The notes beneath the pieces are model-generated. The model was not told the DNA's origin, searched no databases, and was given only the letters and a program-made list of their open reading frames with translations. A stretch of DNA of 62,728 nt. Origin: Bacteroidales bacterium. Its GTDB lineage: Bacteria; Bacteroidota; Bacteroidia; Bacteroidales; UBA932. The translations under genes were made by a program, and so were the position numbers. Of this stretch, positions 4,892-37,075 are shown piece by piece. The stretch is taken from contig JAGAIY010000011.1 of NCBI GenBank assembly GCA_017626355.1, positions 1 through 62,728 of the forward strand, in the 5' to 3' direction. The number at the start of each line of letters is the position of its first letter. The stretch's first letter is position 1.

Positions 4892-5157
4892 TACTTCGCA
4901 AGTCCTGTTTCCTGCCATTGTCCGGCCACAGCTGCAGCATCCTTTTCTGCTGTCTCCCTGTCAATGCCGTACCTGTCTACAAGCAGGTCCGCAAGCATAT
5001 TCACATCAAACTCTTTTCCTTCGACCTGCTCCCAAAGATATGCTGCAGAGCTGTTTAAGGTTATAAGCTTGTTGAAGTTGACCTGGTCAACCCCTTCACC
5101 GATGACTGTAGCCTGTCCCATGACATCCCTCAGTCTGAATCCTTCAATTATTTTCAT
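4891..5157 (-). CDS. PqqD-like peptide-binding protein (RRE type)
   Basis: An 88-residue protein fitting the PqqD fold. The N-terminal strand GFRLRDVMGQATVIGEG is followed by NFNKLITLNSSAAYLWEQVEG and a helical C-terminus with LADLLVDRYGID. In family knowledge PqqD proteins are RiPP recognition elements that hold a precursor's leader peptide for a modifying enzyme. Here it sits between an S26-type peptidase (3-base gap) and a nucleotidyltransferase (TAATG overlap). No radical SAM partner or lasso cyclase is visible nearby, so its peptide partner is unknown. Confidence 0.82.
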   Translation of the reverse strand: MKIIEGFRLRDVMGQATVIGEGVDQVNFNKLITLNSSAAYLWEQVEGKEFDVNMLADLLVDRYGIDRETAEKDAAAVAGQWQETGLAK

Positions 5158-5160
5158 TCT

Positions 5161-5610
5161 TTATAATATGGTTCTTTTATATATTGCCAGAAGGTATCGC
5201 CTCACGGGAAGCAGAACCTTCCATATCTTTGCTTTGCGCTGATGGGAAGCTGAACTGCAGTCGATTTCTTTCCCATCCCTGATGATTTTTGAGGCAACTG
5301 CAAGAATATCGCTTCTTCTACATCTCTCCCGTCCGGCTATATTTCCGTCTCCCATCAGTATGACAGTCTCTCCTTCAATCCTCTCTATTCTGTGGAGCAC
5401 GTATCTTGAGCCTTCTGTTTCAGCTAATGCTATATCTCCGGTCTTGAGACTGTCGGCCTTTTTCAATACAACACTGTCCCTCTCTCCACGTATGAAAGGC
5501 AGCATGCTCATGCCTTTGGGCTTGAACGTCACCTCCATCCCTTCCTTGATGAACCTTGCGATCTCCGGAATCAGAGTCTCATTCGGTATTATTCTGGTCT
5601 GCATTGTCAT
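5161..5610 (-). CDS. S24/S26-family peptidase (signal-peptidase-like)
   Basis: A 149-residue protein. Ser35 sits in GMSMLPFI, followed by a His in YVLHRIERI (His73) and LMGDGN (Asp88). That Ser/His/Asp arrangement resembles SipW and ER-type signal peptidases rather than the Ser/Lys LepB type. There is no N-terminal transmembrane anchor. The C-terminal 25 residues are basic and hydrophobic and could be membrane-associated. The ATG at 5610 forms an ATGA overlap with the HprK-like gene. An alternative upstream ATG at 5634 overlaps more. Its position in the operon suggests it cleaves a peptide or leader handled by the PqqD-like protein, which is inference. Confidence 0.75.
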   Translation of the reverse strand: MTMQTRIIPNETLIPEIARFIKEGMEVTFKPKGMSMLPFIRGERDSVVLKKADSLKTGDIALAETEGSRYVLHRIERIEGETVILMGDGNIAGRERCRRSDILAVASKIIRDGKEIDCSSASHQRKAKIWKVLLPVRRYLLAIYKRTIL

Positions 5611-6518
5611 ACATTTGTCACGGCTTCGCAGCATACTCTTGCCGCATCATGGTCAGGGAGACATTCCATCACCCAGCATGGAACGGATGAAATGATATCC
5701 TGTATTGTACGGTCTCGTCCGTCTGCAAGTTCCTTTACCCATGTCATCCCCGAGAAACTTGTCATAAGAGATGCATATGACTGGATAGGTGACAGCCTGC
5801 GTGCTTTGTTGTGCAGAGCCCTTGATATGCGGATTATGCCGCCGACCGGAGCCTGCATGTTCTTATAGCACCTTGTCTTTCCGCTCCATGGAGAACCGTA
5901 TGCAACGGCAGTGCCGTCATCGCTGATTCGGATTACCGGATGGTCATCGTTCATCAGTACCACTCCTTCCAGTGCATTCAGCCACATGCGGCTGTGCGTA
6001 CTTTTTCCTGTACCGCTCTTTCCAAGGAAAAGATAGGCCTTCCCCCCGTATGTGACGCATGAGGCATGAGCCAGAACCGTTCTGTTGCAGGAAGTGGCAA
6101 GAAGAAAGCAGAAGTTTACACCGGTATTGAAAGTCAGCCACCGCTGGATGGGGCTTCCGTATAGAGCCATCCTTGCCTGCTTGAGGTCACGGGTAACGAA
6201 AAGCCTTCCGTTTATGGTATCCGATTGCGGCTGTGTGAACTCGAAGCAATGCCCCTCCGGACTCTTGTATACCGACAGTTCGATGAATCCCGGTTCAACT
6301 GTGCCCTTGTTGGAATAAACCGGCTGCATTTCCTGGCTCCATGCGTTCCCGTCTGTATCTTCATCTGATATGTTTAACGAAAACAGCATATCTTCCTTCT
6401 GCTCTGAAACCTCGAACGGTCCGTAAGCCTCTTCCATCCTCTCCCATATGGGTGATTCCACGTCCATCTCCACCCTGAACAGATGTCCAGCAACCTTATA
6501 TGTCTTGTATTGTGCCAT
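5607..6518 (-). CDS. HPr kinase/PEPCK-like P-loop protein
   Basis: A 303-residue protein from the chosen start, with Walker A GKSGTGKST at 166-174 preceded by LAHASCV. LMNDDHPVI at 188-196 is the acidic HprK-type Walker B segment, and GSPWSGK is at 208-214. This pattern belongs to the HprK-like group found in lasso-peptide clusters, where such enzymes phosphorylate the precursor peptide. True HPr kinases differ in N-terminal domain and context. I chose ATG 6518 because the upstream extension to 6608 is poor in protein-like character and crosses a -7 box. It is the first gene of the coupled operon running to 2160. Confidence 0.78.
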   Translation of the reverse strand: MAQYKTYKVAGHLFRVEMDVESPIWERMEEAYGPFEVSEQKEDMLFSLNISDEDTDGNAWSQEMQPVYSNKGTVEPGFIELSVYKSPEGHCFEFTQPQSDTINGRLFVTRDLKQARMALYGSPIQRWLTFNTGVNFCFLLATSCNRTVLAHASCVTYGGKAYLFLGKSGTGKSTHSRMWLNALEGVVLMNDDHPVIRISDDGTAVAYGSPWSGKTRCYKNMQAPVGGIIRISRALHNKARRLSPIQSYASLMTSFSGMTWVKELADGRDRTIQDIISSVPCWVMECLPDHDAARVCCEAVTNV

Positions 6519-6523
6519 AATGA

Positions 6524-6531
6524 CAAAGATA
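6524..6531 (-). promoter_or_regulatory. -7 box immediately upstream of the HprK-like operon
   Basis: TATCTTTG on the minus strand fits TAnnTTTG and ends only 5 bases before the ATG at 6518. If used, transcription would begin at or next to the start codon, giving a nearly leaderless mRNA. No clear -33 box is seen. Confidence 0.4.
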
Positions 6532-6639
6532 CGGATTTTATAAGTAACGACCATATCCTCAGCCCATTTTCTGCTCCTTTCCCCAATCATTCCCAACAAC
6601 CGCATCACCTATATGCCTGACAATGAGCACGATATGTTA

Positions 6640-7136: not shown

Positions 7137-10100
7137 TTAATTTTGTACAGTAAAGATATCATCTTCCTCTTTAACTCCAGTTATAGTGATATTGTCAGCG
7201 TCATAATAACCAGAGTAAGCATCCTTTACTATCTTCTTTCCGCAAGGGACCACAACTCGTGAATCACCAACCATTCCAGTTACTGTATCTTCTCCAGTAA
7301 AAGTGAATAAAGCGTTACTACCAGTCATATCAAGGCTACCACCTCTCATCAAGATACCGCAACCCTTATTGATGTTGAAAGTGCCGCCAGTTACTTTCAA
7401 AGTACCTTTCTGTGGATGATAAATACCACAAGCTACATAATCTGCAGATGCGATATTTGCATTGAAAGTACCACCGCTAATTTCAATTGTGCCGCCCTGG
7501 TACTTGAGATCATTAGTACCGTTTCCACTGATTACCGCATTGTCATTCGATGTAAAAGTACCATCTGTAATCTTAACAGTACCAGCCATATTAAACACGG
7601 ATACCTCTTGTGCTTCAAAAGTACCACCATTGAAGTTAGCAGCACCGTTTACAACTTTAACACAATGACCAGTCTCATTATTGAATTTACCTGCAGTGAC
7701 ATTGAGAGTACCACCTGAAACTTCCACCAAACCAGTGATAGTACCGGTAGTATTAACTGTTACCACAGGAGCCTCATAAGAAGCATATTTGCATACATCG
7801 AAAGCGATATCCTTAGCAGGAGCTATAATAGAAGTCGAACCTGTAAGATTTACTGTACCGCTATTGTTTGACACAATATACCTTACATTTTCTCCATTAT
7901 GAGCAATGTTGGTTCCGTCAATTGTCATGTTTTCAAGAGTGAGGTCCGCATAATTCTGAATCATCATTGCGATTCCTTTCTGTGTGTCACCTGAGTTCCA
8001 TTTGCAATCCTTGTTTTCAACAGAACAGTTGATCGTACCATTCATGAATTTGATATTCTGTCCTTGCAGAATCTGGAAACCTAAAGTGGTCGTTCCTGTG
8101 GAACCCACTCCCGGCTTGTTCAAAGTATATGTGTGTCCTCCGAAATCAATACAGATAGGGTTGAGCTTTGTGTCAATGACAAGACCTGTAGCATCATCGA
8201 TGTCCTTTAGAACGCAGATGGTTTCATTTGACTCGACATTTTCAAGGGCCTCACTCAATGAAGTGTAGTATCCTTTCTCCTCGATTTTGGCTACAACTTC
8301 GTTCCATTCGACAGTCTCATCTGTAGTTGCACTGTTAGACCATAAGTTATCTTCGATAGTTACCGTTTCAGATGTACCATTATCATTGCCGTCACCAGAG
8401 AAATCCCATTTCAAATGGATTGGCTCAGTAATTTTTTCCTCTCCAATATAACAATCATTGAATTTCAGATTTGTTGTATGCTTGAGACTGATTGTGAAGT
8501 TTTCATCGAAAGTACAACTCTTGAAGTTTGCAGCGCAATATGGAATATAGTTCTGATAATCCCCACTCAGTCCGAATGTGCAATTTGCGAAGGTGTGATG
8601 TACTCCGTGTCCTGAGAGCCATCCGAACATATTGCAATTTTCGAATTTAACATTCAGATTGTTTGGTCGGCTGAAATTGAAAGCATATACCTTATCGTCA
8701 AATTCGCAGGATTTTACATCCAATGATCCAGATAAAGACGTTGAATTAGTATAAATTGCTCTTTTGCCCTTCGCCATTTCCTCTGCAGTAGGAGTTTTGA
8801 AGTTACATCCCTCAATAGTGGATCCAGCTTCTACAATAATATCATACTGAGTGTTAGCTGACTTGAAGGTGATATTCTTGATATAACCACCTTTCAGAAC
8901 GAATACACCTTTGCCTATACCCTCAGCAATCTCGCATTTGACTTCAACTGAATATTTATTTTCACCGCCATCGATGGTCACTCCTTCTGGAATTTCGATG
9001 TTTGTTTCATATAATATTTCATTTTGAGTCAAGGTATAGGTACCAGAAGTGTTATTAGCTAAGAAGTCGCTTAGACTGGTGCTGTTAGACTTTTTCTTTA
9101 TTACATATCCTTCAGGAGCATCCTTTGGTGTTTCGCTACCATCCTCAACATAGATGGTACCTTCTATACCAGATTCACTGCTCCATTCTTTGACTGTAGC
9201 TCCGTTCTTTACTTCGATATTACCTTTAACGATAGTCAATTTGCTGATTGTGACATTCTTGTCAATTATCAGAGTGTTTTCTGCTGTTGCTGCAGTGACC
9301 TCAGGTATTACTGCATATGAGGCTCCAGCTACAGTAATTGATACTGTAGAGTTTGGCAGGTCGATATTCAGCTTTGTCTTGTCAGATTCTGTCGGAACAG
9401 TAATGTTGACAGTTTCTGCGACCTTTTCGTCATCCTCTGCAGTTATCGTGATAGGTGTCTCTGTAGAGATTGATTCAAATGCAATATTGATAGTACTATT
9501 GTCAGTTTCTGTAGGAAGAGTGATAGTTGGCTCCTGTGTATCCTCCGGTACATCTTCAATAGAAATGTTTTCTGATTCAGCTAATGTCTCACTTGCCTTG
9601 TCAATAGTAGTTTGAGTAGGAATTGTAGCGTTTACTGCATCTAATGTTATAGATGATGTATAGCGCTTGTTCCTCATTGCATTCAATGGCTTTGTTTTCA
9701 GAACTTTTGTATTTTTACCATCAGAAATAGAAAACTGAAGTTCTGAATAAGTTGCTACTGGGATAGGGAAGTAGAACGTCTTGTTTGACACTTCTGTGTT
9801 AACAAAAGTTATGGTTACTTCCTTTGCTCCATTTGTAGGAGCATTCAATGTCGGAACACCATCATTAAAGGTAATTGTGGCGCTGCCGGCAAGATCGGGG
9901 TCAGAATCTGCTGCTTCAAGTGTAGCAACGCAATATCCTGCTGGAATATTGTTGACAGTAAGTGCCATAAGTGCCCCTGCATTGCGGAATACAATGTTGC
10001 TCTCTTCTCCGCTCATCAGTGATGCCATAGGGGCTTTGTTGTTTGCTCCTTCTGTATACTGGTACTCTTCAGCTAATTCTAAGGTTATAGCACTTCCATT

Positions 10101-10430
10101 ATATTTGTTGTCAGAATTGTATGGATATAATGCCGCAACTTTAGTGTTCTCGAAATTTCCGGTGAAAGTCGCATTACTGCTGTTTTTGCCACTCTGTAAT
10201 GTATATTGATGGTTTGTATATGTCAGATTATCACCTGTAGAGAAAATACTGATCATATCAGTTTCCTCCCAGAGAACCTGATTGCCATCCATTGTAGTAC
10301 GAGTCTCTGTATCTGTTGATATTACTGCACTTAATGAATCAGAATGGACTACAGAAGGTATTTCTGCCTCTTTTACGCAACAGCTGAATATCACAGCTAA
10401 TGCTGGAATAATAAAATAATTACTTTTCAT
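7137..10430 (-). CDS. Fimbrillin-like lipoprotein with right-handed beta-helix
   Basis: A 1097-residue surface protein from the chosen start MKSNYFIIPALAVIFSCC, a lipoprotein signal with Cys17 or Cys18 as lipidation site. The N-terminal part has TRTTMDGNQVLWEETDMISIF, typical of Bacteroidales fimbrillin/Mfa-like domains. A Thr/Glu-rich linker follows. From about residue 430 the chain becomes a long series of short repeats of the GGTF, VTGGTFN and NCTF kind, as in parallel beta-helix (pectin-lyase-fold) proteins. The start at 10430 is 10 bases after a 38-codon ORF and avoids a frame that crosses that ORF. Base composition is AT-richer than the neighbours. Adhesin or glycan-binding roles are possible but unproven. 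Confidence 0.8.
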   Translation of the reverse strand: MKSNYFIIPALAVIFSCCVKEAEIPSVVHSDSLSAVISTDTETRTTMDGNQVLWEETDMISIFSTGDNLTYTNHQYTLQSGKNSSNATFTGNFENTKVAALYPYNSDNKYNGSAITLELAEEYQYTEGANNKAPMASLMSGEESNIVFRNAGALMALTVNNIPAGYCVATLEAADSDPDLAGSATITFNDGVPTLNAPTNGAKEVTITFVNTEVSNKTFYFPIPVATYSELQFSISDGKNTKVLKTKPLNAMRNKRYTSSITLDAVNATIPTQTTIDKASETLAESENISIEDVPEDTQEPTITLPTETDNSTINIAFESISTETPITITAEDDEKVAETVNITVPTESDKTKLNIDLPNSTVSITVAGASYAVIPEVTAATAENTLIIDKNVTISKLTIVKGNIEVKNGATVKEWSSESGIEGTIYVEDGSETPKDAPEGYVIKKKSNSTSLSDFLANNTSGTYTLTQNEILYETNIEIPEGVTIDGGENKYSVEVKCEIAEGIGKGVFVLKGGYIKNITFKSANTQYDIIVEAGSTIEGCNFKTPTAEEMAKGKRAIYTNSTSLSGSLDVKSCEFDDKVYAFNFSRPNNLNVKFENCNMFGWLSGHGVHHTFANCTFGLSGDYQNYIPYCAANFKSCTFDENFTISLKHTTNLKFNDCYIGEEKITEPIHLKWDFSGDGNDNGTSETVTIEDNLWSNSATTDETVEWNEVVAKIEEKGYYTSLSEALENVESNETICVLKDIDDATGLVIDTKLNPICIDFGGHTYTLNKPGVGSTGTTTLGFQILQGQNIKFMNGTINCSVENKDCKWNSGDTQKGIAMMIQNYADLTLENMTIDGTNIAHNGENVRYIVSNNSGTVNLTGSTSIIAPAKDIAFDVCKYASYEAPVVTVNTTGTITGLVEVSGGTLNVTAGKFNNETGHCVKVVNGAANFNGGTFEAQEVSVFNMAGTVKITDGTFTSNDNAVISGNGTNDLKYQGGTIEISGGTFNANIASADYVACGIYHPQKGTLKVTGGTFNINKGCGILMRGGSLDMTGSNALFTFTGEDTVTGMVGDSRVVVPCGKKIVKDAYSGYYDADNITITGVKEEDDIFTVQN

Positions 10431-10440
10431 AATATAAGTT

Positions 10441-10557
10441 TTACCAATTTTCCTGATCATAATTTTCGTTGCTTGCAGCGAGCAAGATACTATCCTCAGT
10501 CTGAAGTTCGATAACTTCAACATAAGGACATTCGTAGGTCTGTTTTCTTGTTTCCAT
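10441..10557 (-). CDS. Small protein, 38 residues, upstream of the lipoprotein
   Basis: ATG at 10557 to TAA at 10441. The peptide begins METRKQTYECPYVEVIEL, then has an acidic stretch, ILLAAS, and a tail ending in ENW. From memory, short Bacteroidales proteins with a similar Y-x-x-P-x-VEVIE start and an LAAS or LA-S core sit before fimbrillin-like genes. I cannot verify this by search. The stop lies 10 bases from the lipoprotein ATG, so the two are probably co-transcribed and translationally coupled. Function unknown. It has no signal peptide. Confidence 0.6.
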   Translation of the reverse strand: METRKQTYECPYVEVIELQTEDSILLAASNENYDQENW

Positions 10558-11412: not shown

Positions 11413-11462
11413 TTTTATGAGTTTACGGGTGCACCGCGCAGTACACCCGTAAACTCATAAAA
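11413..11462. repeat. Intergenic palindrome, family A copy 2 (19-base perfect arms)
   Basis: Arms 11413-11431 and 11444-11462 are perfectly complementary, with a 12-base spacer CACCGCGCAGTA. The inner CGGGTG/CACCCG core and the spacer resemble the copy at 6640. Each strand ends in AAAA after the stem, so it lacks the T-run of an intrinsic terminator even though it lies just beyond the BaiN stop. Confidence 0.75.
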
Positions 11463-11501
11463 TGTTGATGATCAGTGGAATGCGTGCCAGGAGACTGGCG
11501 G

Positions 11502-12848
11502 TCATGGTTTCGCTGCGGAAATTCCTGCCAGATATCCTGTGGAGAAGGCGGTCTGGAGATTGTAGCCGCCGGTGTCGGCGTCGAGATCGAGGATTTCTCC
11601 TGCGAAATGGAGGCCGGGGACGAGTTTTGACTCGAGTGTCTTAGGAGTAATTTCTTCCAAGCTGACTCCTCCTGCTGTCACGACGCATCTCTCGTATCCT
11701 ACGAAGCCTGCTATCTCCATCTTCCAGTCTTTCAGCAGGCGTGGGAGACTCTTGTGGTCGGCTCCGGGATTCAACTTCTGGAAGGCCGGTATCAGGGACA
11801 TGGGCAGCACTTTCCCGAGAAGTATCCTGAATCTGTCCTTGTATAGCTTGTTGGAGTTGCGTTTATCTTTTGATATTTCATTCCACAGCGTGCCGATTCG
11901 TACGGTAAGGTCGTCAAGCTCTACCGCAGGTTTCATGTCGAGCGATGCGGTGACTTTTGAGCCGTTTATGAGGGCGTTGACACATTTGCGGCTGACCTTG
12001 AATCCGATAGGCCCCTCTATGCCTCCGTCAGTGAAGTCGAGGTCTCCGAATTCGTTCTGGATTTCATTGCCGTCTGCAATGATGGATAGTCCTACGTTCT
12101 TGAGCTGGTTGCCGCATAGAGCCTGACCGGTTTCTGTGAGTGGCAGACTTCTTTCGATATGACCCTTCAGATCTTTGGACTGAGGCTTTGATGTGTCGTC
12201 CTTATATCCTTTGGGAACTATGGCGGTCAGGGAAGGGAAAAGCGGTCTGACGGTATGTCCCATTTCTCGTGCCCAGTCATAACCGTCTCCTGTGGATCCG
12301 GTCTTGGGGTAGGAGAGACCTCCGGTCGTGATTATCAGTTTCCTGCAGGTATATTCCGCACCGTCGCTGCATCTGATGCTGAATGACCTGCAATCTGCAG
12401 TCCCGTCACTGTCATGGCGCCTGATGTCCGTGACTTCCTTTCCGCATATGATCCTGGCTCCGGCTTCGGATGCTGCTTTGACCAATGTGTCCACCACGTC
12501 AGATGCAAGATGTGAAGCCGGGAACGCCCTGTCACCTCTCTCTATGACAGCTTCCATACCATGTGTCGTGAGAAAATCCACCATCTTTTCTGAGGTCAGA
12601 TTGTAGAATGATTGTTTCAGAAAGTTCGCCTTCGGGTGTACGTGGCTTGAAAATTCATTCCACTGCTTGACGTTAGTGAAGTTGCAGCGCCCTTTCCCGG
12701 TGATCATTATCTTCCTGCCCGGACGTGGCATCTTTTCAAGAACCACGACTCTCCCGTCCACACCATCCCGGGTGAATGTTTCAGCAGCTCCGACCGCAGC
12801 CATGAGGCCGGCCGCTCCTGCACCTATGATCAATACATCCGCATCCAT
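11502..12848 (-). CDS. NAD(P)/FAD-dependent oxidoreductase, BaiN/HI0933 family
   Basis: A 448-residue cytosolic flavoprotein. It starts with a dinucleotide-binding fold (VLIIGAGAAGLMAAVGAAE), then VLEKMPRPGRKIMITGKGRCNFTN, the HI0933-family signature. ITTGGLSYPKTGSTGDGYDWAREMGH lies mid-chain. The C-terminal FAGEILDLDADTGGYNLQTAFSTG closes the FAD site. Family members include BaiN, but most have no proven substrate, so a bile-acid role should not be assumed. It is a single gene with its own -7 box upstream and a palindrome just past its stop. Confidence 0.88.
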   Translation of the reverse strand: MDADVLIIGAGAAGLMAAVGAAETFTRDGVDGRVVVLEKMPRPGRKIMITGKGRCNFTNVKQWNEFSSHVHPKANFLKQSFYNLTSEKMVDFLTTHGMEAVIERGDRAFPASHLASDVVDTLVKAASEAGARIICGKEVTDIRRHDSDGTADCRSFSIRCSDGAEYTCRKLIITTGGLSYPKTGSTGDGYDWAREMGHTVRPLFPSLTAIVPKGYKDDTSKPQSKDLKGHIERSLPLTETGQALCGNQLKNVGLSIIADGNEIQNEFGDLDFTDGGIEGPIGFKVSRKCVNALINGSKVTASLDMKPAVELDDLTVRIGTLWNEISKDKRNSNKLYKDRFRILLGKVLPMSLIPAFQKLNPGADHKSLPRLLKDWKMEIAGFVGYERCVVTAGGVSLEEITPKTLESKLVPGLHFAGEILDLDADTGGYNLQTAFSTGYLAGISAAKP

Positions 12849-28916: not shown

Positions 28917-31202
28917 TCAGGCATACGAGTGCATGCCGCTGAGCAGATACGTCACTCCGAAGAAGGTCATCATGACAGCCAGGAATGCAATTACCGACAG
29001 CAGATTGAAAAGCCATAGCGATGACCTGCTTTTAAGAAGATGAATGTGGGTCACGACGGTATATACGATGACCGTTATCAGGGCCCAGGTTTCCTTAGGG
29101 TCCCAGCCCCAGTACCTCCCCCATGATTCATTGGCCCAGACGGCACCGATGAAGGTGCCTATGGTAAGAAGAACCAGCCCTACCCATAGGGACATTTCGT
29201 TGAGTATGGTCGTCTCATTTACGTACTGCATCAGTTTTCCGGATTTTGTCCTTCCGGCAGACATGAATATGAGGTTGACGACTCCCATCAGGCAGCTTAA
29301 ACCGAAGAAACCATATGCTGCTGTTATTGTGGCGACATGGAACATAAGCCATGGAGACTTGAGTACTGGCACCAGAGTGGTTATCTGAGGATCCATCCAG
29401 CTCATTCCTGATACGAACAGGATGACACCGCCGAAGAGCACTGCCAGAGAGAATACAAGCATGTTGCGTCTTGCTGACAGAAAGCCGGCAGCTATAGTGG
29501 CCCATGAGATATAAACCATTGTCTCATAAGAGTTTGTCCATGGAGCATGGCCTGCTATATACCATCTCGTACCCATGCCGGCCATGTGAATCGCGAATGC
29601 CGTGGCAGCGAGACATATGATGATGTTCTTCATACGGCCTGTCCTGAGATGTCCTGATACCGCCAGCAATGAAAGCAGGAGGGAAATGAAACCGAGGACG
29701 AGATATGAGATACGGCAGATATGGAACGGGTTCAGCCTGTTGTAGAGGACTTCCGTCTCCATCTTCTTTTCCGAGATGTCAACACCTGTGGCCTTGGCCT
29801 GCTGATAGGTGTCTATCATTCCGAGGACCTTGTCCGCCTGCTCCCAGTCTCCGCTGACGACTGCAGAAGAAACCTCTTCAAGGTACCAGTCGAATATACG
29901 GCTGACAAACATTGAATCCTTGCCGACAAAAGCGCCGAGGTCATCACCGGGGGCATACCACCTGCAGGCGGTGTCTTCAGGCAGAGGGAAGATCCTGAGC
30001 AGTCTGCGGGATGCGAGCATATTGAAGATGTTCACCCTTTCATCCAGCTTGAGCACATCCTTATCTCTCTTTGTCCTTTCGGAAGGATCCTTTCTGTAGA
30101 TGGCCTCGAGTTCATTGCGGAGCTTATAGTTTCCGGAGGTGTCGAACATCTGCTGATATGAGGAGTAGGGGACATCAAGGCCATATCGTCCGGCAAGTTC
30201 ATCATTCCTGACCGAAATGCAGGGGATTCCGCTCCATAGCCCGGGATCGGCCATCAGGCTGAGCAGGAACCTGTCCGGATCGAGTCCTATGATCTCGTCT
30301 TCCTTGCAGATCTTACGCATGATTTCGGAAGAAAAGGTGTTAACCGGCATCATGCGTCCGTCTGCACTCTGGACGGCAAGACGCCCGAATTCTTCTGCAT
30401 GTCTGCTGTCTATCCTGCCGGCGGCCTCTGCGGTGTTGGATGGTATGCCCAGGGCCAGGACAAGCATGAGGGGGGCCGCCTTTATTGCGCCAAGCTTTCT
30501 GTACAGCCGGCGGAACCTGCCGTTCCTGTCCGTCAGCGACAGGATAAGACCTATGAAGAGGGTCAGGTAGCCTGCATATGTTATCGCCCGTCCGCAGGAA
30601 TCATGACTTACAGACAAGATGCTTCCCATTTCATCCTGATCGAAGGAGGCCTGATAAAGCCTGTATCCCTGTATGTCAAGGACGTTGTTCATGAATATAT
30701 GGGCCTTCACCTCTTCTGTCTCGGAAGTTATTGTGACGAAACTTTCATATGAAGACGGGCTCCCGGAGCCGGGGTATCTCTTCAGGATGAAGTCGTCCAG
30801 ATATACTGAGAACGGCAGGTCCCTGGTTTCTGTCTTCCCGTCCTTCCCCCTTATGACCATTCTGTCGGTTCCGTCTCCTTCCCTGAGATGTATGATGCCT
30901 TCAAAGGAAAAGAAGTGGGTCACAGCCGCGCCTGCCATGATGATCACGAAAGACAGATGGGTCAATATCATGCCGAGGCGTCTGCTCTTGAAATGACCGG
31001 ACTTCCATGCGAGCATGAAGAAGTTGGCTGCATTCAGAATCAATATCGTGAACAGGACCGGTGAATGGTATACCAGCCTTCTTGCAGCCTCTGTCCCATA
31101 GTACTTTTCTATGAAGGTCGCTCCTGCAAGCATGATGATGAGTGCTGCAAGCAGGACAAGACTGGTCTTGAAGGACGATAACTTCTTCAGTAACTTCTTC
31201 AT
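28917..31202 (-). CDS. Fused ResB-CcsA cytochrome c biogenesis protein
   Basis: A 761-residue inner-membrane protein for system II haem attachment to CxxCH apoproteins. The N-terminal half is ResB/CcsB-like: transmembrane segments, then the soluble domain with FEGIIHLREGDGTDRMVIRG. The C-terminal half is CcsA-like, with the haem-handling motif WGRYWGWDPKETWALIT and several membrane spans. Such fusions are usual in Bacteroidales. Its ATG overlaps the stop of the 1329-residue cytochrome gene by one base (TGATG), so it is co-translated with the probable client proteins. Confidence 0.88.
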   Translation of the reverse strand: MKKLLKKLSSFKTSLVLLAALIIMLAGATFIEKYYGTEAARRLVYHSPVLFTILILNAANFFMLAWKSGHFKSRRLGMILTHLSFVIIMAGAAVTHFFSFEGIIHLREGDGTDRMVIRGKDGKTETRDLPFSVYLDDFILKRYPGSGSPSSYESFVTITSETEEVKAHIFMNNVLDIQGYRLYQASFDQDEMGSILSVSHDSCGRAITYAGYLTLFIGLILSLTDRNGRFRRLYRKLGAIKAAPLMLVLALGIPSNTAEAAGRIDSRHAEEFGRLAVQSADGRMMPVNTFSSEIMRKICKEDEIIGLDPDRFLLSLMADPGLWSGIPCISVRNDELAGRYGLDVPYSSYQQMFDTSGNYKLRNELEAIYRKDPSERTKRDKDVLKLDERVNIFNMLASRRLLRIFPLPEDTACRWYAPGDDLGAFVGKDSMFVSRIFDWYLEEVSSAVVSGDWEQADKVLGMIDTYQQAKATGVDISEKKMETEVLYNRLNPFHICRISYLVLGFISLLLSLLAVSGHLRTGRMKNIIICLAATAFAIHMAGMGTRWYIAGHAPWTNSYETMVYISWATIAAGFLSARRNMLVFSLAVLFGGVILFVSGMSWMDPQITTLVPVLKSPWLMFHVATITAAYGFFGLSCLMGVVNLIFMSAGRTKSGKLMQYVNETTILNEMSLWVGLVLLTIGTFIGAVWANESWGRYWGWDPKETWALITVIVYTVVTHIHLLKSRSSLWLFNLLSVIAFLAVMMTFFGVTYLLSGMHSYA

Positions 31203-34200
31203 CAGTCTTCTATGATTACTCTGAAACCTACGTTGAACACCCTCTGATAAGGATAGAAGCCTTTTCGTGAGTATGAGGTCGAGAATTTCGGCCTTTCTAT
31301 GAACGAACCTCCTCTTACGACCTTGTATTCACCTGTCTCCTTGCTGTTCTCCTTGTAAGGATATGGAATATAGTCGGATCTTGTCCATTCGCAGACGTTT
31401 CCGTGCATGTAATAGAGACCGAACGGATTGGCCTCATGCCATATGCCTCCGGTCTGGACGAGGCATGAATCGTCTGTTCCCTCATCCTTCGGAAGATATG
31501 TGTAGTACGGGTACCATCCGTCATCGGGACTCATCGGCTGAGGGTCGATTCCTATTACGGCGAAGAGCAGGGTCGTCCTGTCAGCCAGATTGTCTTTGCT
31601 GCCGAAATCAGTACCCATGTCACCATACCAGAAGTCCGTATCGCTTCCTGCACGGCACGCCCACTCCCACTGCGCTTCTGTCGGAAGAGTCACATTCTTT
31701 CCGATTTTTCTGCTGAGCTTTCGGCAGAACTCCATGGCATCCTCATAGCTGACCCTGATGACAGGCTGATCCGGCAGATTGGCAGGATAGCCCTGTACTA
31801 CATGGTCTTTCCATTGCTGGTCGACATAGCGGCTGTCATGTTCAGGAAAGAAGATGTTGTATTGCTCGTTTGTGACTTCAAGTTCACCCATCCAGAAGGC
31901 TTTCCCGATCTTTACCTCTGTTTCCGGATATGTGTCGGACGGACCGGAACAGCTGCCCATCACGAAACTTCCGGACGGAATCCTTACGAAATTCATGTTT
32001 ATGCCGGGGGCTATCTCGATGGTCATTCTTGTCTCACCGGCCGCTTCCTGCAGCTCCTTGGCCTTTGCCGCGTCGAAAGGCCAGTTCCTTACCTTCAGTT
32101 CTTTGGCCTTCTCCTGAACCACAGGTTCGGGACGCTCAGGGACGATCTCTCCCTGTCCTGCAAGGTAGGCTGCATAATCGGCAAGCTCCTGCTTCCAGTC
32201 TACACCTGCACCGTTTCCGTATTTGTCCGTCAGTTCAATGCGGCGTTCCATCTGGTCATGTCCCTTGTAAGGAATGTCTGTTACAGGTTCGGCTATGAAA
32301 TAACCCTTGTCAGGGGCATTGTAGTCGATCCAGTTGTATAAGGTCCTCCATTCCTTGTCGGTGAGTGTAACGTTATGGTGTCCTCTCTTGAGCATCCTTA
32401 CGAGTTCGCTCGTGTTAGGATGATATTCATAAGGCTGGAGAACGACCATGTCTCCTTCTCCTCCCTGACGATGGACATACGGATGCAGATTCAGGTATGA
32501 AGTGCCGTAGCCTTTCCCGTCTTTCCTGCCTCCGCGCAGGTCGAAGGCTTCATCTCCGTTATGGCATGAAATACATGTGCGGTCAAGTATAGGCTGGATC
32601 TCAAGGTCGAATGTGAATGACCTGACACCTCCTTCCGGAGTCTTCAGCTTATGCGGCTCCCTTTGTGATGCAAGAACCCTTTTAGGTATGACTGTCTGAT
32701 TCTGGCTCTCATGACAGCCTATGCAGGATACTATTTCTCCCGGCTGGCCGGTGACCCAGCTTCTCATCCATTGAACGGCCACTCCTTCCTTGTCCAGCGG
32801 CTGGATTGAAAGAGGAGTGTTGGCCGGAGCCTTGAATATTACTGAACCGTCTTCCTCGACAGGAGCGGTGCCAAGGTTCCTCTTTATGTCCCAACCCGAC
32901 TGGATTCCGTGCCAGTTGTGGTCGGAAGGACTCTTCACATAGGCATATTCATATGCATGTATGCGTACTTCCTTGACGGTACCTCTCGGAATTCCGCGAA
33001 GACCCTCTCCTTCGTAGATGTCCTGAATGAAGAAAGTGGCCTCCTTCTGGTCGAGCTTGACCCTGTCCGGCAAAGCAGGAGGAATCACGGTCTTCCTGAC
33101 AAGCACCGGGCTTATGAACCCTTCGTCTTCGGCTTCTATTATGCAGGTGACATTGTCGAAGATGTCAACAAGGTAGATTCCCCACAACGACTCTTCAGAC
33201 AGCTTTGCAGCAACAAGAAAATATTTCTCGTCCAGAACGGATGGCTTGACGAACTGGGGCCATACTCCGTTGACAAGTTCATCCTTTATGAGTTCGGTGA
33301 CAGGCCTGTTCCTGTGCGGAATTTCCTGAGTCACACCCTCCGTACTCTTCCTTCCGACAGAAGGGTCGAAGAGCAGAAGTCTTCCGGAACGGGCGATGCC
33401 ATGATGACCGGAGATGATTCCTATGAATGAGGTACCGTTGCCAGGGAGCGGCTGGACGTCGAAGATACTGTTCGGGAACATGGCTCCGCTGCCATAGAGG
33501 GCCTTGTTTTCGGTTCCGTCAGGATTCATATGCATCACTATTCTCGAGTAATAGTGGGTGAGGTCTGTATATTCCCAGCGGGTGTACATCACTTTTCCGT
33601 TGTTCATCACGACTGGATTCCAGTTGGCGTCCTGATCGAAGGTGAGGCGGCGCATGTTCCTGTCTGACGGATCATAAAGAACGAGATTACCTACTGGGTC
33701 GTCACCGTTCACGCATGGTACTCCCTGATATCCGATGTTGGAAACCGCAAGGATCCTGCCGTCCGGAAGGTATGTGCCGTCGTAAAAGTCAAGGTCAGGC
33801 TCCTCATTCTCTATTATCTTTCTGAAGCCGCTGCCGTCAAGCTTCACCTCGAAGATGTTCCATCTCCTGTCTTCCTGGGTCTGGGTGAACATCATCCGGT
33901 CTCCGTCCCAGTGCAGCCTGAGGTCCGATATGCAGGAACCGTTGTCCGGCCTGTAGACTGTCCTGCTGCTGACCTTGCCTCTGAGGTCGGAAAGCTCCAC
34001 GATTTCAGCATCGAAACCATCACGAGGCGTGGACATCTGGTTGCTCCAGTTGTTTGATTGGGTTCCGAGCTGCGGGGCCATGGCTGTCCTTGCCTGTGAA
34101 CCGAGCCTGTAACGGGCTGCCACTATCCTGCCGGAATCCAGCAATGGATTTGCAAGCAGGATCGAACGCTTCAGCTCCAGAGCCTTGCGGGCAGTTGCAA

Positions 34201-35191
34201 TGGCGGCAGTATCTTCCCTGTATATTCCCGCGAATCCTTCTGCTGTCAGTGAAGCCAGCTCGTTCAGCATCAGACCGTATTTCCTGGAGTCATATGTCTT
34301 GTCGGTGCACATGTCTTCATATGCGAGCTGTATCGCAGGAATATCGATCCAACTCAGAGCTGTCTGCAGCCGGCGGATCTCGATGATGGCTTCAATGAGA
34401 CGTATGCAGCCCTTGATCTTTGTCCTGCAGTCCTTTTCCGCTTCCAGTTCCTTGATTCTGGCGAGAAAGTACGAGGGATCGTCAAGCCCGGATGCAAGCT
34501 GCCTTGCTGTTCCGGTCTCGATGGTCATGTCCGCATCTTTCATCCATCTGTCAAGATCTCCCAGCATAAGGCTCATAAGTTCTCCGTCTTTGGGATATCT
34601 TCCGGCTGCATCGTTGAGATATCTGTCAGGAAGCTCGTTCAGGGCTATGAAACGGACACTGCCTGTAGAAGAACTGTCGTCGATTCCGACAAGGGCCTCA
34701 AAGCGTACATATTCATCCTTCGGCAGGTCATATACGATGACGCCGTCGGCGTGACAGAATATCGCATGGTCATATCCCTTTCCTGCAATCCTTATCGGCT
34801 CGTTGTCAGCATTCTTGTCGTAGATGACGGAACCTTCCCCGGCTTTGCCATATGCATATCGGATGTCATCGAGCCATACATAAGAACCGTCCTTCCTGAA
34901 GAGACGGGCTTCAGCCCATACGGCATGATCCCAGCCGCTTCCGTCCTCTCCTCCGTCGGTAATAAGAACGAGCTTATCCATTCCTGCAAGGTCCAGCGAG
35001 AATGCTTCCGCCTTCATGGACGACTTCATATATGACGAAGTCTTGGGCAGATTCGTTTCCTTCAACTTTGCAATGTATCTGTATTTGGCTTCGGCAAAGC
35101 AGTCCAGTCCGGCCTCGGAAACGGACTTTCCGGAAGCAAGCATGGACAGGCTAGTCAGAAGCGACAGTGTCAGCAGAAATACTTTTTTCAT
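31202..35191 (-). CDS. Beta-propeller di-haem protein fused to a SUMF1-like domain
   Basis: A 1329-residue exported protein (signal MKKVFLLTLSLLTSLSMLAS). Residues about 60-185 form an NPCBM-like beta sandwich (KLVLITDGGEDGSGWDHAVWAE). About 200-380 are helical. About 410-690 are propeller blades with DPDLDFYDGTYLPDGRIL. Haem motifs are CIGCH (823-827) and CISCH (873-877). The C-terminal SUMF1/FGE-like domain spans about 1055-1328 (FVRIPSGSFVMGS, VSYEDAMEFC, LPTEAQWEWACRAG, HGNVCEW, VVRGGSF). The Cys pair that formylglycine-generating enzymes carry after RGGS is missing, so sulphatase maturation is unlikely. The propeller and haem part resembles hydrazine-synthase-alpha-type proteins in layout, which is inference. 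Middle gene of the operon. Confidence 0.8.
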   Translation of the reverse strand: MKKVFLLTLSLLTSLSMLASGKSVSEAGLDCFAEAKYRYIAKLKETNLPKTSSYMKSSMKAEAFSLDLAGMDKLVLITDGGEDGSGWDHAVWAEARLFRKDGSYVWLDDIRYAYGKAGEGSVIYDKNADNEPIRIAGKGYDHAIFCHADGVIVYDLPKDEYVRFEALVGIDDSSSTGSVRFIALNELPDRYLNDAAGRYPKDGELMSLMLGDLDRWMKDADMTIETGTARQLASGLDDPSYFLARIKELEAEKDCRTKIKGCIRLIEAIIEIRRLQTALSWIDIPAIQLAYEDMCTDKTYDSRKYGLMLNELASLTAEGFAGIYREDTAAIATARKALELKRSILLANPLLDSGRIVAARYRLGSQARTAMAPQLGTQSNNWSNQMSTPRDGFDAEIVELSDLRGKVSSRTVYRPDNGSCISDLRLHWDGDRMMFTQTQEDRRWNIFEVKLDGSGFRKIIENEEPDLDFYDGTYLPDGRILAVSNIGYQGVPCVNGDDPVGNLVLYDPSDRNMRRLTFDQDANWNPVVMNNGKVMYTRWEYTDLTHYYSRIVMHMNPDGTENKALYGSGAMFPNSIFDVQPLPGNGTSFIGIISGHHGIARSGRLLLFDPSVGRKSTEGVTQEIPHRNRPVTELIKDELVNGVWPQFVKPSVLDEKYFLVAAKLSEESLWGIYLVDIFDNVTCIIEAEDEGFISPVLVRKTVIPPALPDRVKLDQKEATFFIQDIYEGEGLRGIPRGTVKEVRIHAYEYAYVKSPSDHNWHGIQSGWDIKRNLGTAPVEEDGSVIFKAPANTPLSIQPLDKEGVAVQWMRSWVTGQPGEIVSCIGCHESQNQTVIPKRVLASQREPHKLKTPEGGVRSFTFDLEIQPILDRTCISCHNGDEAFDLRGGRKDGKGYGTSYLNLHPYVHRQGGEGDMVVLQPYEYHPNTSELVRMLKRGHHNVTLTDKEWRTLYNWIDYNAPDKGYFIAEPVTDIPYKGHDQMERRIELTDKYGNGAGVDWKQELADYAAYLAGQGEIVPERPEPVVQEKAKELKVRNWPFDAAKAKELQEAAGETRMTIEIAPGINMNFVRIPSGSFVMGSCSGPSDTYPETEVKIGKAFWMGELEVTNEQYNIFFPEHDSRYVDQQWKDHVVQGYPANLPDQPVIRVSYEDAMEFCRKLSRKIGKNVTLPTEAQWEWACRAGSDTDFWYGDMGTDFGSKDNLADRTTLLFAVIGIDPQPMSPDDGWYPYYTYLPKDEGTDDSCLVQTGGIWHEANPFGLYYMHGNVCEWTRSDYIPYPYKENSKETGEYKVVRGGSFIERPKFSTSYSRKGFYPYQRVFNVGFRVIIED

Positions 35192-35215
35192 AGTCTTGGC
35201 GTCAGTGATCTGATT

Positions 35216-36982
35216 CTATAGAGAATTTACATATTCGGTAAGCGCCTCTATCTCTTTCTTTGAAATCTTCCTGTCAATGCCGTGGCGATGCACCTCGAAC
35301 ACTTCCTGCATGGTGGCGGCGCGGCCGTCAAACAGATAAGGCGCCGTTCTCCAGCACTCACGCAGGGTAGGCGTGTCCCAGCCCTGGTCGAACTCGATGT
35401 CCTCACCGATCCTGTACATCTGCAGGTCTGTGTAATAGCCGCCTCCGTGGCAGTCGTCACATTTCAGTTCGTGATAAATCTCCTTTCCTTTCTTTGCCTT
35501 TTCGGACAGTTCACCGTCTACCAGATACGGACTTGGAACCGGTTCCAGTGACTTCAGATACGCATCTACGCAGGCTGCATCCTCTTCTGATATGTTGAAG
35601 AACTGTATGAATTTGAAACCGGCGCGTACCGCCCATTCAGCCGATGACCTGATTCCTGAAATCATGCTTGGAGGAGTCACATGGCTGAAAAGAAGACTCT
35701 TGCAGTTCTTCGGATTTCCGACTCCGTCATTCATCAGGTCCCAGTTCATTCCGTCCGCCCTGCCGTCTCCCGGATGGCAGCCGTTGCAGCTCTGCCATCC
35801 CTGGAAGCAATTGGAAGCGTCGTTGAAATATTTCTCTCCTTTGTCGATGTCGGTTTCCGTACGTCCCGGATTGAGGTCTATAGAGTCGAGTCTTCCTGTT
35901 ATCGGATCATAGACGTTCAGGATATCTGCGAAATATGTGGGAACATACAGTTTTTCTCCGGACAGACAGATGGCCCGCGGCCCGTTTCCTTCCATATCTA
36001 TCCTTGTCCTGATGCCCTTTAGGAAGGTTAGGTCATACTCGATGGCAGACCTGTCCTGAGTGTCAATGAATTTTCTGATCATCTCCTTCTGCCTGATCAC
36101 GCTGATTTCGTGTGTGCCGGAGTGGGATATGTAGATATTGTTCTCGTCGCACTCGACATCCCATATGCCTGCGGCACCGCGCTCCGGCTCGTCCGTCACG
36201 ACAGTTCCGAGAAGCTCATGCTCCCGGATGTCTATTATGCTGAGTGCGCTTGTGTTCATCCAGCCCTGATGGAGCTGAGAGGTAGGGACGGTGTATCTGC
36301 CGAGATTATGGCATACGTAAGCATAGTTCCCGTCAGGCGACATGCAGATGTTGCGGACGGCATTGCTTCCGTTGGCAAGACTTATGTCCTTTATCCTTCT
36401 GAAGGTCTTGATGTCGATGACGGACACGCATGCGGAGACATGACCGGCATCCGCCCGCTGGGCGGGGAGGAAATTCGTGACATAAAGATATCTGCCGTCT
36501 TTGGTCATGGCTGCGGATACAGGTTCCCTCATCAGCCTGACGGTACGGGTCACTTCTGCGGACCTTACATCCACTTCGGATACGGTATTGCGGAAACGGT
36601 TACAGACATAGACTTTACCTCTGTCAAGGTCAGGGACGGGGCTGCAGGCTCCTGAACCGGTCTCTATACTTGCATGTTCCTTTCCGTCAGCAAGATCCAT
36701 GATGTGGAGCTTTCCTTCAGATCCGAAAGTGGTGACGAAGATCTTTCCTTCCGCGACAGCTACTCCGGTAGGTGGTGAATCAAGGTCATATGTGGCTGTG
36801 AGCTTTTTGCCGTCCGAGGAGTAAAGAGCTATCCTGTCAAGTCCCTTCTCTGTCATTACTATATGCCCGTCCGGGCTCCATGCGATGCCGGTAGGAAACA
36901 GAGGACCGTTATCGGCATGAACCGGATTGAACGGCAGGGACATAAGGATAAGGGTTAAATATTTCAGTACTGAAGATCTCAT
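35216..36982 (-). CDS. YVTN-propeller di-haem cytochrome (MauG/CCP-like C-terminus)
   Basis: A 588-residue secreted protein (signal ending PVHAD). Residues about 25-370 form a seven-blade-like YVTN propeller, with repeats such as GIAWSPDGHIVMTEKG, AAMTKDGRYLYVTNF and NICMSPDGNYAYVCHN. The C-terminal part binds two haems, at CNGCH (399-403) and CDDCH (508-512). TAPYLFDGRAATMQEVF followed by a His is typical of di-haem peroxidase/MauG-type domains. It could oxidise a periplasmic substrate or partner. It is the first gene of the operon and is followed after 24 bases by the 1329-residue protein. Confidence 0.82.
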   Translation of the reverse strand: MRSSVLKYLTLILMSLPFNPVHADNGPLFPTGIAWSPDGHIVMTEKGLDRIALYSSDGKKLTATYDLDSPPTGVAVAEGKIFVTTFGSEGKLHIMDLADGKEHASIETGSGACSPVPDLDRGKVYVCNRFRNTVSEVDVRSAEVTRTVRLMREPVSAAMTKDGRYLYVTNFLPAQRADAGHVSACVSVIDIKTFRRIKDISLANGSNAVRNICMSPDGNYAYVCHNLGRYTVPTSQLHQGWMNTSALSIIDIREHELLGTVVTDEPERGAAGIWDVECDENNIYISHSGTHEISVIRQKEMIRKFIDTQDRSAIEYDLTFLKGIRTRIDMEGNGPRAICLSGEKLYVPTYFADILNVYDPITGRLDSIDLNPGRTETDIDKGEKYFNDASNCFQGWQSCNGCHPGDGRADGMNWDLMNDGVGNPKNCKSLLFSHVTPPSMISGIRSSAEWAVRAGFKFIQFFNISEEDAACVDAYLKSLEPVPSPYLVDGELSEKAKKGKEIYHELKCDDCHGGGYYTDLQMYRIGEDIEFDQGWDTPTLRECWRTAPYLFDGRAATMQEVFEVHRHGIDRKISKKEIEALTEYVNSL

Positions 36983-37007: not shown

Positions 37008-37015
37008 CAAATATA
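37008..37015 (-). promoter_or_regulatory. -7 box for the cytochrome operon
   Basis: TATATTTG on the minus strand, a perfect TAnnTTTG match 25 bases before ATG 36982. It is immediately adjacent to the V-ATPase terminator stem. Confidence 0.5.
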
Positions 37016-37019
37016 ATAA

Positions 37020-37056
37020 AAAAGGACAGACTTTCAATTTTCAAGCCTGTCCTTTT
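37020..37056 (-). terminator. Terminator of the V-type ATPase operon
   Basis: Ten-base perfect arms (AAAAGGACAG and CTGTCCTTTT) are extended by an inner CTT/AAG pairing. On the minus strand the stem ends in a T-run. It lies about 20 bases beyond the K-subunit stop. Confidence 0.75.
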
Positions 37057-37075
37057 CTTCGGTTTTATTCCGGTT

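Follow-up and report, generated by a model that had tools for sequence, protein, structure and literature searches.

A hydrazine synthase-like tetrahaem gene cassette in a Bacteroidales genome and its possible role in the oxidation of sugar-type substrates

What might a Bacteroidales bacterium do with two secreted c-type haem proteins whose genes are followed directly by one for a haem ligase? Such a cassette lies on contig JAGAIY010000011.1 (assembly GCA_017626355.1; Bacteroidota, Bacteroidia, Bacteroidales, UBA932), analyzed here over its positions 1 to 62,728, a stretch of 62,728 nucleotides that we call the window. A first-pass annotation made from the sequence alone had described three genes, their coordinates and CxxCH motifs, a gap of 24 bases between the HzsBC-like and HzsA-like genes and an overlap of one base between the HzsA-like and ResB-CcsA genes, all of which we find as described:

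35216..36982, minus strand: HzsBC-like gene (588 amino acids, with CNGCH and CDDCH)
31202..35191, minus strand: HzsA-like gene (1329 amino acids, with CIGCH and CISCH)
28917..31202, minus strand: fused ResB-CcsA gene (761 amino acids)

The same annotation knew of no named pathway with this gene content, but a named relative exists: profile, PDB sequence and fold matches identify both secreted proteins as homologues of hydrazine synthase (HZS), the signature enzyme of anaerobic ammonium oxidation (anammox). The encoded complex is almost certainly HZS-homologous and, judging from the residues it has lost, we are equally confident that it is not a hydrazine synthase. The overall reading that we cautiously favor is a secreted tetrahaem oxidoreductase, homologous to HZS and horizontally acquired, which would oxidize a sugar-type substrate instead of making hydrazine.

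The likeness to HzsABC (PDB 5C2V) extends through the whole design, with an alpha subunit of propeller, middle domain and cytochrome c, a beta propeller, a di-haem gamma, and four haem motifs that align residue by residue with those of the window proteins. What sets the window operon apart is the addition of an NPCBM and a formylglycine-generating enzyme (FGE)-like domain, the ResB-CcsA gene alongside, and the sugar-type neighbors of many relatives. In the 588-residue protein, a signal peptide recognized by inspection is followed by a beta-like YVTN propeller and a gamma-like di-haem domain:

35912..36895, minus strand: seven-bladed-type, HzsB-like propeller (residues 30-357; from profiles, AlphaFold model and fold search)
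35774..35788, minus strand: haem gamma-I site CNGCH (residues 399-403; aligns with Kuenenia gamma Cys102, Cys105 and His106)
35447..35461, minus strand: haem gamma-II site CDDCH (residues 508-512; aligns with gamma His229)

The best NCBIfam models for this protein are those of the hydrazine synthase beta-gamma fusion, gamma and beta, all far under their cut-offs (hydrazine_BC: 4.6e-27 and 94.5 bits, cut-off 1250). In the PDB sequence search, 5c2v_B came first (1e-17) and 5c2v_C third (2.5e-16), behind a surface-layer propeller. The AlphaFold model (pLDDT 82.2) has 5c2v_B as its top PDB fold, with a TMt of 0.86 for the propeller part; its gamma part is low in confidence, and the likeness to HZS gamma rests on sequence. 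Both gamma haem sites are present in 33 of 33 beta-gamma homologues, and the equivalent of the distal gamma-His332, H567 in the window, is His in 29 of the 33.

The 1329-residue protein is ordered as NPCBM, propeller, HZS_alpha, cytochrome c and FGE-like domain. The first-pass annotation had rightly noted its two CxxCH motifs and had missed the HZS_alpha, NPCBM and FGE-like domains:

34649..34882, minus strand: NPCBM carbohydrate-binding-type domain (residues 104-181; PF08305, 2.5e-24, above cut-off)
32708..32983, minus strand: HZS_alpha middle domain (residues 737-828; PF18582, 6.6e-36, 123.2 bits, cut-off 26.6)
32711..32725, minus strand: haem alpha-I site CIGCH (residues 823-827; aligns with Kuenenia Cys583, Cys586 and His587)
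32561..32575, minus strand: haem alpha-II site CISCH (residues 873-877; aligns with Kuenenia Cys685, Cys688 and His689)
31214..31993, minus strand: FGE-like domain (residues 1067-1326; PF03781, 1.3e-41, well above cut-off)

At 52.8 bits the protein stays below the NCBIfam hydrazine_alpha cut-off of 800; its PDB sequence match is chain A of 5c2v, and the AlphaFold model of residues 190-1329 (pLDDT 90.3) has 5c2v_A as its top PDB fold over 810 columns (TMt 0.60).

The third gene product contains both domains of the CcsBA (ResB-CcsA) system II cytochrome c synthase, Cytochrom_C_asm (PF01578, 2.4e-33) and ResB (PF05140, 5.3e-25), each above cut-off, together with a WWD-type motif (WGRYWGWDPKE). 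It differs from that system in being encoded beside an HZS-like complex and in falling below the TIGR03144 CcsB cut-off (158.1 bits against 187.6). Over its full length it is 42-54% identical to nine copies from HZS-like loci, a comparison from which a motif filter dropped the ResB-CcsA of L079, L083, L099 and L100; three CcsA-type proteins from within its genus reach 30-34% identity over partial length. PF01578 is found over cut-off in 38 of 61 genus genomes, where such ligases are common without HzsA, and its sole match in the window's genome (73.8% complete) is the cassette gene. The earlier proposal of linked, secreted c-type haem proteins with a haem ligase of their own is thus borne out, the ligase being closest to copies at HZS-like loci.

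But what has become of the hydrazine chemistry? As anammox references we used HzsA and HzsC of Planctomycetota genomes, 27 of 392 of which pass the HzsA cut-off; the anammox HzsA model gave a below-cut-off match in one of 14 control genomes. A core hidden Markov model (HMM), which matches anammox HzsA at up to 119 bits and across residues 104-789 of 806, matched 146 open reading frames (ORFs). Eight pieces with a core span of fewer than 480 residues were excluded, and 123 sequences entered the tree and the residue counts: 12 of the 27 anammox rows, chosen by us, and 111 of the 119 others, made up of 95 FGE-fused rows and 16 without an FGE match (including L120, cut by a contig end). For L033, whose gene is flagged with a stop like that of L031, the open piece was used. 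Sequence L196 reproduces the Kuenenia numbering without offset, and the published residues fall on the expected letters. One of 16 sequences labeled as anammox gamma is not HzsC, and the gamma counts of anammox rest on 15.

The losses concern residues whose roles in HZS are described in PMC12607021 and PMC12758564. At the position of alpha-Tyr591, the ligand of haem alpha-I, all 12 anammox rows have Tyr; none of the 95 FGE-fused rows and none of the 16 others does, and the window has Asn831. The position of alpha-Cys303 falls in a gap in all 95 FGE-fused rows; 9 of the 12 anammox rows have Cys there. On the gamma side, Cys165, which forms the third covalent haem bond, and His144 are present in 0 of 33 beta-gamma homologues, and Asp168 is likewise absent from all 33. 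Retained are alpha-His587 and both alpha haem sites (95 of 95 FGE-fused rows), gamma-His106 and gamma-His229 (33 of 33) and the WD pair after the gamma-I attachment site (33 of 33); at alpha-His772, 63 of the 95 FGE-fused rows have His, and the neighboring His938 is present in all 95. With conservation in 95 of 95 and 33 of 33 rows, the four CxxCH motifs are not there by chance. Five further residues, C493, R538, W539, Y541 and H597, do not vary across the 95 FGE-fused rows; the 16 others largely retain them, but anammox does not, a pattern which suggests an active site unlike the anammox one.

The FGE fusion forms one tree group (support 100) of the 95 rows plus one row cut by a contig end, apart from anammox HzsA, in a quick tree made without bootstrap and with a long-branch warning among the non-FGE rows. 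HZS-like proteins outside anammox are themselves known. PMC12758564 describes alpha and beta-gamma pairs in clades I-IV, with missing HZS residues and with Bacteroidota among the beta-gamma homologues, and states a beta-gamma fusion for Scalindua, like that of the window protein; PMC10732223 places such pairs in Phycisphaerae and KSB1 and proposes other substrates for them. The present genes resemble these pairs in that alpha and beta-gamma adjoin and key HZS residues are missing. They differ from clade I, which keeps gamma-Cys165 and is reported without alpha-His772 (PMC12758564): our FGE-fused family is without gamma-Cys165 and has His for alpha-His772 in the 63 of 95 rows given above. In the parts accessible, neither paper gives an established function for the non-anammox homologues, and PMC12758564 treats the origin of hydrazine synthase as debated. 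The word 'formylglycine' is absent from both main texts, supplements lying outside this search, as are 'ResB' and 'sulfatase' from the main text of PMC12758564 and 'sugar' from that of PMC10732223. Our literature searches, made over listings and without subscription papers or supplements, turned up no account of three features that appear to be new here: the fusion to FGE, the haem ligase encoded alongside, and the link to sugar genes. The present genes are also a caution for metagenome surveys: HZS_alpha or hzs matches are not evidence of anammox.

For the substrate we turned to the gene neighborhoods of relatives. The named loci are the best 80 of at least 565 relatives in a scan of named genomes. 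Among the matches listed are relatives from named strains of Bacteroides, Parabacteroides, Rikenella and Millionella, and many others come from metagenome-assembled genomes (MAGs) of Planctomycetota, Verrucomicrobiota (including Akkermansia), Kiritimatiellae and Lentisphaeraceae. Above the HZS_alpha cut-off, B. cellulosilyticus has 1 copy, P. goldsteinii 8 and one Phycisphaerae genome 23, with none in 14 control genomes; so many paralogues would suit a family that acts on more than one substrate.

Around the FGE-fused gene, out to 10 kb, we looked for ten gene families. They had been named on a single cluster, L067, by Pfam, NCBIfam and PDB sequence matches, and were traced at other loci with HMMs built from that cluster. 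The counts take one HzsA per locus, require at least 5 kb on both sides in the main set and sort phyla by record titles; they include near-copies (L077 and L101 are identical, L067 and L095 about 95%, L100 and L111 close) and two broken HzsA genes (L037 and L112). At 24 Bacteroidota loci we found HzsBC in 17, ResB-CcsA in 10, a lyxose-isomerase-like cupin in 13, LsrF-like genes in 11, DhaK in 10, DhaL in 8, IclR in 10, a Mala_s_1-like propeller in 9 and an FkbO-like gene in 8. The 19 loci of other phyla hold HzsBC in 7, ResB-CcsA in none, and DhaK, DhaL and LsrF in 3 each. Conservation of the three cassette genes together, which the first-pass annotation had proposed to check, holds within 10 kb at 10 of the 24 Bacteroidota loci, the window included, and at 0 of the 19 others. 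DhaK, DhaL or LsrF lie within 10 kb at 11 of the 24 Bacteroidota loci, with HzsBC at all 11, and at 3 of the 19 others; they accompany 9 of the 10 three-gene loci, the exception being that of the window. Without the flank minimum, 42 Bacteroidota loci give HzsBC in 21, ResB-CcsA in 15 and DhaK/DhaL/LsrF in 17, and 55 loci of other phyla give 12, 0 and 4.

In the L067 cluster, the LsrF-like protein is above its NCBIfam cut-off and matches LsrF in the PDB at 4.5e-100, DhaK has a PDB match at 2.5e-62, and the cupin matches D-lyxose/D-mannose isomerases at 1.7e-9. An alternative set of FGGY kinase, DeoC-family aldolase and alcohol dehydrogenase, counted in these two loci only, occurs at L135, with an FGE-fused HzsA, and at L070, whose HzsA is without FGE. 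At L172 a GH88 gene adjoins HzsA, and SusC/SusD-like genes are visible by inspection. Beyond linkage, among 393 genomes of the order Dak1 was found in 9 of the 15 with FGE-type HzsA, a type assigned from match scores and not from individual FGE searches, and in 7 of the remaining 378 (Fisher p 9e-11); with all HzsA-core genomes the figures are 10 of 27 and 6 of 366 (p 2.4e-9). Isomerase, kinase and aldolase in succession are the usual chain of sugar catabolism. That chain turns up again with kinases of unrelated type, so the neighborhood is best read as indicating a sugar-type substrate. We give about even chances to a carbohydrate-linked periplasmic oxidation of such a substrate. Function should be genetically testable, since FGE-fused homologues lie beside DhaK and LsrF-like genes in the named strains Bacteroides cellulosilyticus DSM 14838, B. 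clarus YIT 12056 and Rikenella microfusus DSM 15922.

Some of the loci deserve mention in their own right. In L067, an FkbO/Hyg5 chorismatase-like protein is encoded at 11434-12525 between HzsBC and HzsA (TIGR04444, 93 of 325 bits), with PDB matches to 5ag3, titled a putative pteridine-dependent dioxygenase (4.8e-17), and to FkbO (6.9e-8). HzsA-FGE, HzsBC and an FkbO/chorismatase-like gene stand in a row, without kinase or aldolase, at L163 9281-15842 and L160 9413-15970 (Akkermansia and Akkermansiaceae). In Bacteroides faecichinchillae (L112 9926-13913), the HzsA-like gene is in pieces and its HzsBC, cupin and IclR neighbors are open.

How could such a system work? We infer an operon whose alpha-like subunit, with NPCBM and FGE-like domains fused to it, would join the fused beta-gamma-like subunit in one complex, the co-inherited ResB-CcsA attaching the haems. 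At haem alpha-I, without the Tyr ligand of HZS, and with the help of C493, R538, W539, Y541 and H597, a carbohydrate-type substrate held by the NPCBM domain, the FGE-like domain or both may be oxidized, with haems alpha-II and gamma-II as the way out for the electrons. Relatives would then import the product, isomerize it with the lyxose-isomerase-like cupin, phosphorylate it with DhaKL or an FGGY kinase, and cleave it with the LsrF-like or DeoC-family aldolase.

Several findings weigh against this proposal. In the window's genome, no sugar genes are linked to the cassette, which may have another role there; no Dak1, LsrF-like or lyxose-isomerase-like gene was found in that genome, a weak negative at 73.8% completeness. 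DhaK, DhaL and LsrF are absent at 13 of the 24 Bacteroidota loci and 16 of the 19 others, and L106, the nearest tree neighbor of the window HzsA, has HzsBC and HzsA with neither a ligase nor sugar genes over 3 kb on the near side and 10 kb beyond. The L067 kinase subunits score under their NCBIfam cut-offs (DhaK 288.9 of 406.25 bits, DhaL 129.6 of 138.3), so they do not fix the substrate, and the Fisher test counts as independent genomes that are not so, three of the nine belonging to one genus. HzsBC is missing within 10 kb at 7 of the 24 Bacteroidota and 12 of the 19 other loci, and the alpha-like protein may often be active without a linked partner. Finally, model confidence near gamma-I (residues 406-415 and 424-446) is below 50.

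The alternative that survives best, unlikely as we consider it, is a peroxidase or peroxygenase, in which the gamma-like di-haem domain would activate peroxide in the manner of cytochrome c peroxidase (CCP) or MauG and the alpha-like protein would protect the cell or oxidize a glycan or protein. The first-pass annotation had pointed to MauG/CCP-like domains, and the resemblance is real: the di-haem order is that of the bacterial CCP/MauG proteins, the gamma-II ligands are retained, and there are weak CCP_MauG, MbnH and MauG profile matches. Both the Pfam CCP_MauG (16.3 bits, cut-off 25.6) and the NCBIfam MauG match (23.2 bits, cut-off 443.85) nevertheless stay below cut-off, the HZS beta and gamma models match better, making hydrazine synthase the best family, and the HzsB-like propeller fused here sets the protein apart. 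A peroxidase would also leave the linkage to isomerase, kinase and aldolase unexplained.

Less probable again is a turnover of nitrogen oxides (NO, hydroxylamine or nitrite, by reduction or detoxification) without hydrazine, in effect half of the HZS reaction at gamma-I. The shared subunit design and the gamma-I site with its WD pair in 33 of 33 homologues would suit it; the absence of gamma-Cys165, gamma-His144 and gamma-Asp168 from those same 33 would not, nor would the sugar-type neighbors of many relatives, and NrfA was not found in the window's own, incomplete genome. Still less probable, in our view, is a module for general electron transfer to some external acceptor. Four haem motifs and a linked ligase are what such a module would need, yet no other ORF listed for the window has a CxxCH motif, and so no multihaem conduit or reductase is linked (porins were not searched), and the family-invariant residues of the alpha region look like those of an active site. 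Nothing was found in support of the microaerobic role or external electron acceptor that had been suggested earlier, and the neighbors of many relatives are sugar-type genes.

Very improbable, in our estimate, is that the FGE-like domain matures sulfatases or other partners with the haem part supplying oxidizing power. PF03781 is matched well above cut-off, and the best fold match is PvdO with FGE structures next. However, at the positions 1299 and 1304, which by eye we take to correspond to the copper pair Cys336/Cys341 of human FGE, D/E is found in 40 of 41 rows and A/S in 36 of 41; a fuller count, with the equivalence again read by eye, gives D/E/Q in 41 of 41 and A/S/G in 37, with Cys in 4 of 41. 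The closest solved sequences are ToxD and PvdO, in alignments that did not include human FGE. The domain is apparently without the FGE copper cysteines, a canonical FGE was judged unlikely on this by-eye equivalence, and we think it more probable that the domain binds something or acts as an accessory than that it activates sulfatases. A true hydrazine synthase, for which the homology of all three HZS parts would speak, was rejected as scarcely credible, with alpha-Tyr591, alpha-Cys303, gamma-Cys165 and gamma-His144 all gone.

Returning to sugar oxidation, a bolder reading concerns the history of the family. Haem-dependent periplasmic complexes that oxidize carbohydrates might be widespread in Bacteroidota, Verrucomicrobiota with Akkermansia, and Planctomycetota, and HZS might have been recruited from that stock as a re-purposed sugar oxidase, an idea we put forward tentatively and hold to be rather less probable than not.

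How, then, did the window's genome come by its copy? The distribution in the genus is patchy: of 200 genomes of the genus, 1 was found to carry the cassette, namely that of the window, and the 79 of best quality gave none; V-ATPase subunit I is found in 56 of 61. In four of six fetched sister genomes, V-ATPase subunit K lies near ndk, with no or one gene between and no cassette; in the sisters G431 and G433 the V-ATPase is followed by other genes, and the sequence covered showed no ndk. In the tree, the window HzsA falls inside a Parabacteroides/Bacteroides group, next to one sequence from a Verrucomicrobiales MAG. Because of its rarity in the genus, its absence from the matching site of four of six sisters and this tree position, the cassette was probably acquired horizontally, and as a unit. 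A foreign contig or misassembly was judged unlikely, since window genes to either side of the cassette have counterparts of 42-99% identity in genus genomes, arranged in the same neighborhood. At the same site in G431, downstream of V-ATPase subunit K (L091 6721-8999), we noted another cytochrome c module, a 479-residue protein with three CxxCH motifs and a CcsA-like gene on the opposite strand.

Two features stand between V-ATPase subunit K and the cassette:

37018..37058, minus strand: terminator-like stem-loop after V-ATPase subunit K (16 pairs, 3' arm ending in T)
37008..37038, minus strand: promoter-like site ATTG-N19-TATATTTG upstream of the cassette (relaxed pattern)

The stem-loop folds at -21.4 kcal/mol (z -6.2), with an equal or better value in 0 of 200 shuffles. 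The promoter pattern, based on what we take to be the Bacteroidota consensus, lends weak support: it was loosened after reading the sequence, the strict TTTG pattern having two matches in the window and none upstream of the cassette, and the relaxed form matches three times against 0.43 expected, with at least three matches in 2 of 100 shuffles. A generic promoter and terminator scan of the window gave totals within about one standard deviation of shuffles; its loop limit of 8 keeps the stem-loop off its list. Because of these two elements the cassette is probably a transcription unit of its own, apart from the V-ATPase operon; co-transcription with the V-ATPase was judged unlikely, the sisters having a V-ATPase without the cassette.

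Elsewhere in the window, a 1127-residue protein without a Pfam match at 0.001 is encoded on the minus strand at 7143-10523. Consecutive genes at 2166-6608, also on the minus strand, encode an ATP-binding cassette (ABC) exporter, an NTP_transf_5 nucleotidyltransferase, a PqqD-like protein, an S24-like peptidase (just under cut-off) and a 332-residue orphan, a row that resembles a small peptide-modification module of the type that makes ribosomally synthesized and post-translationally modified peptides (RiPP-like).

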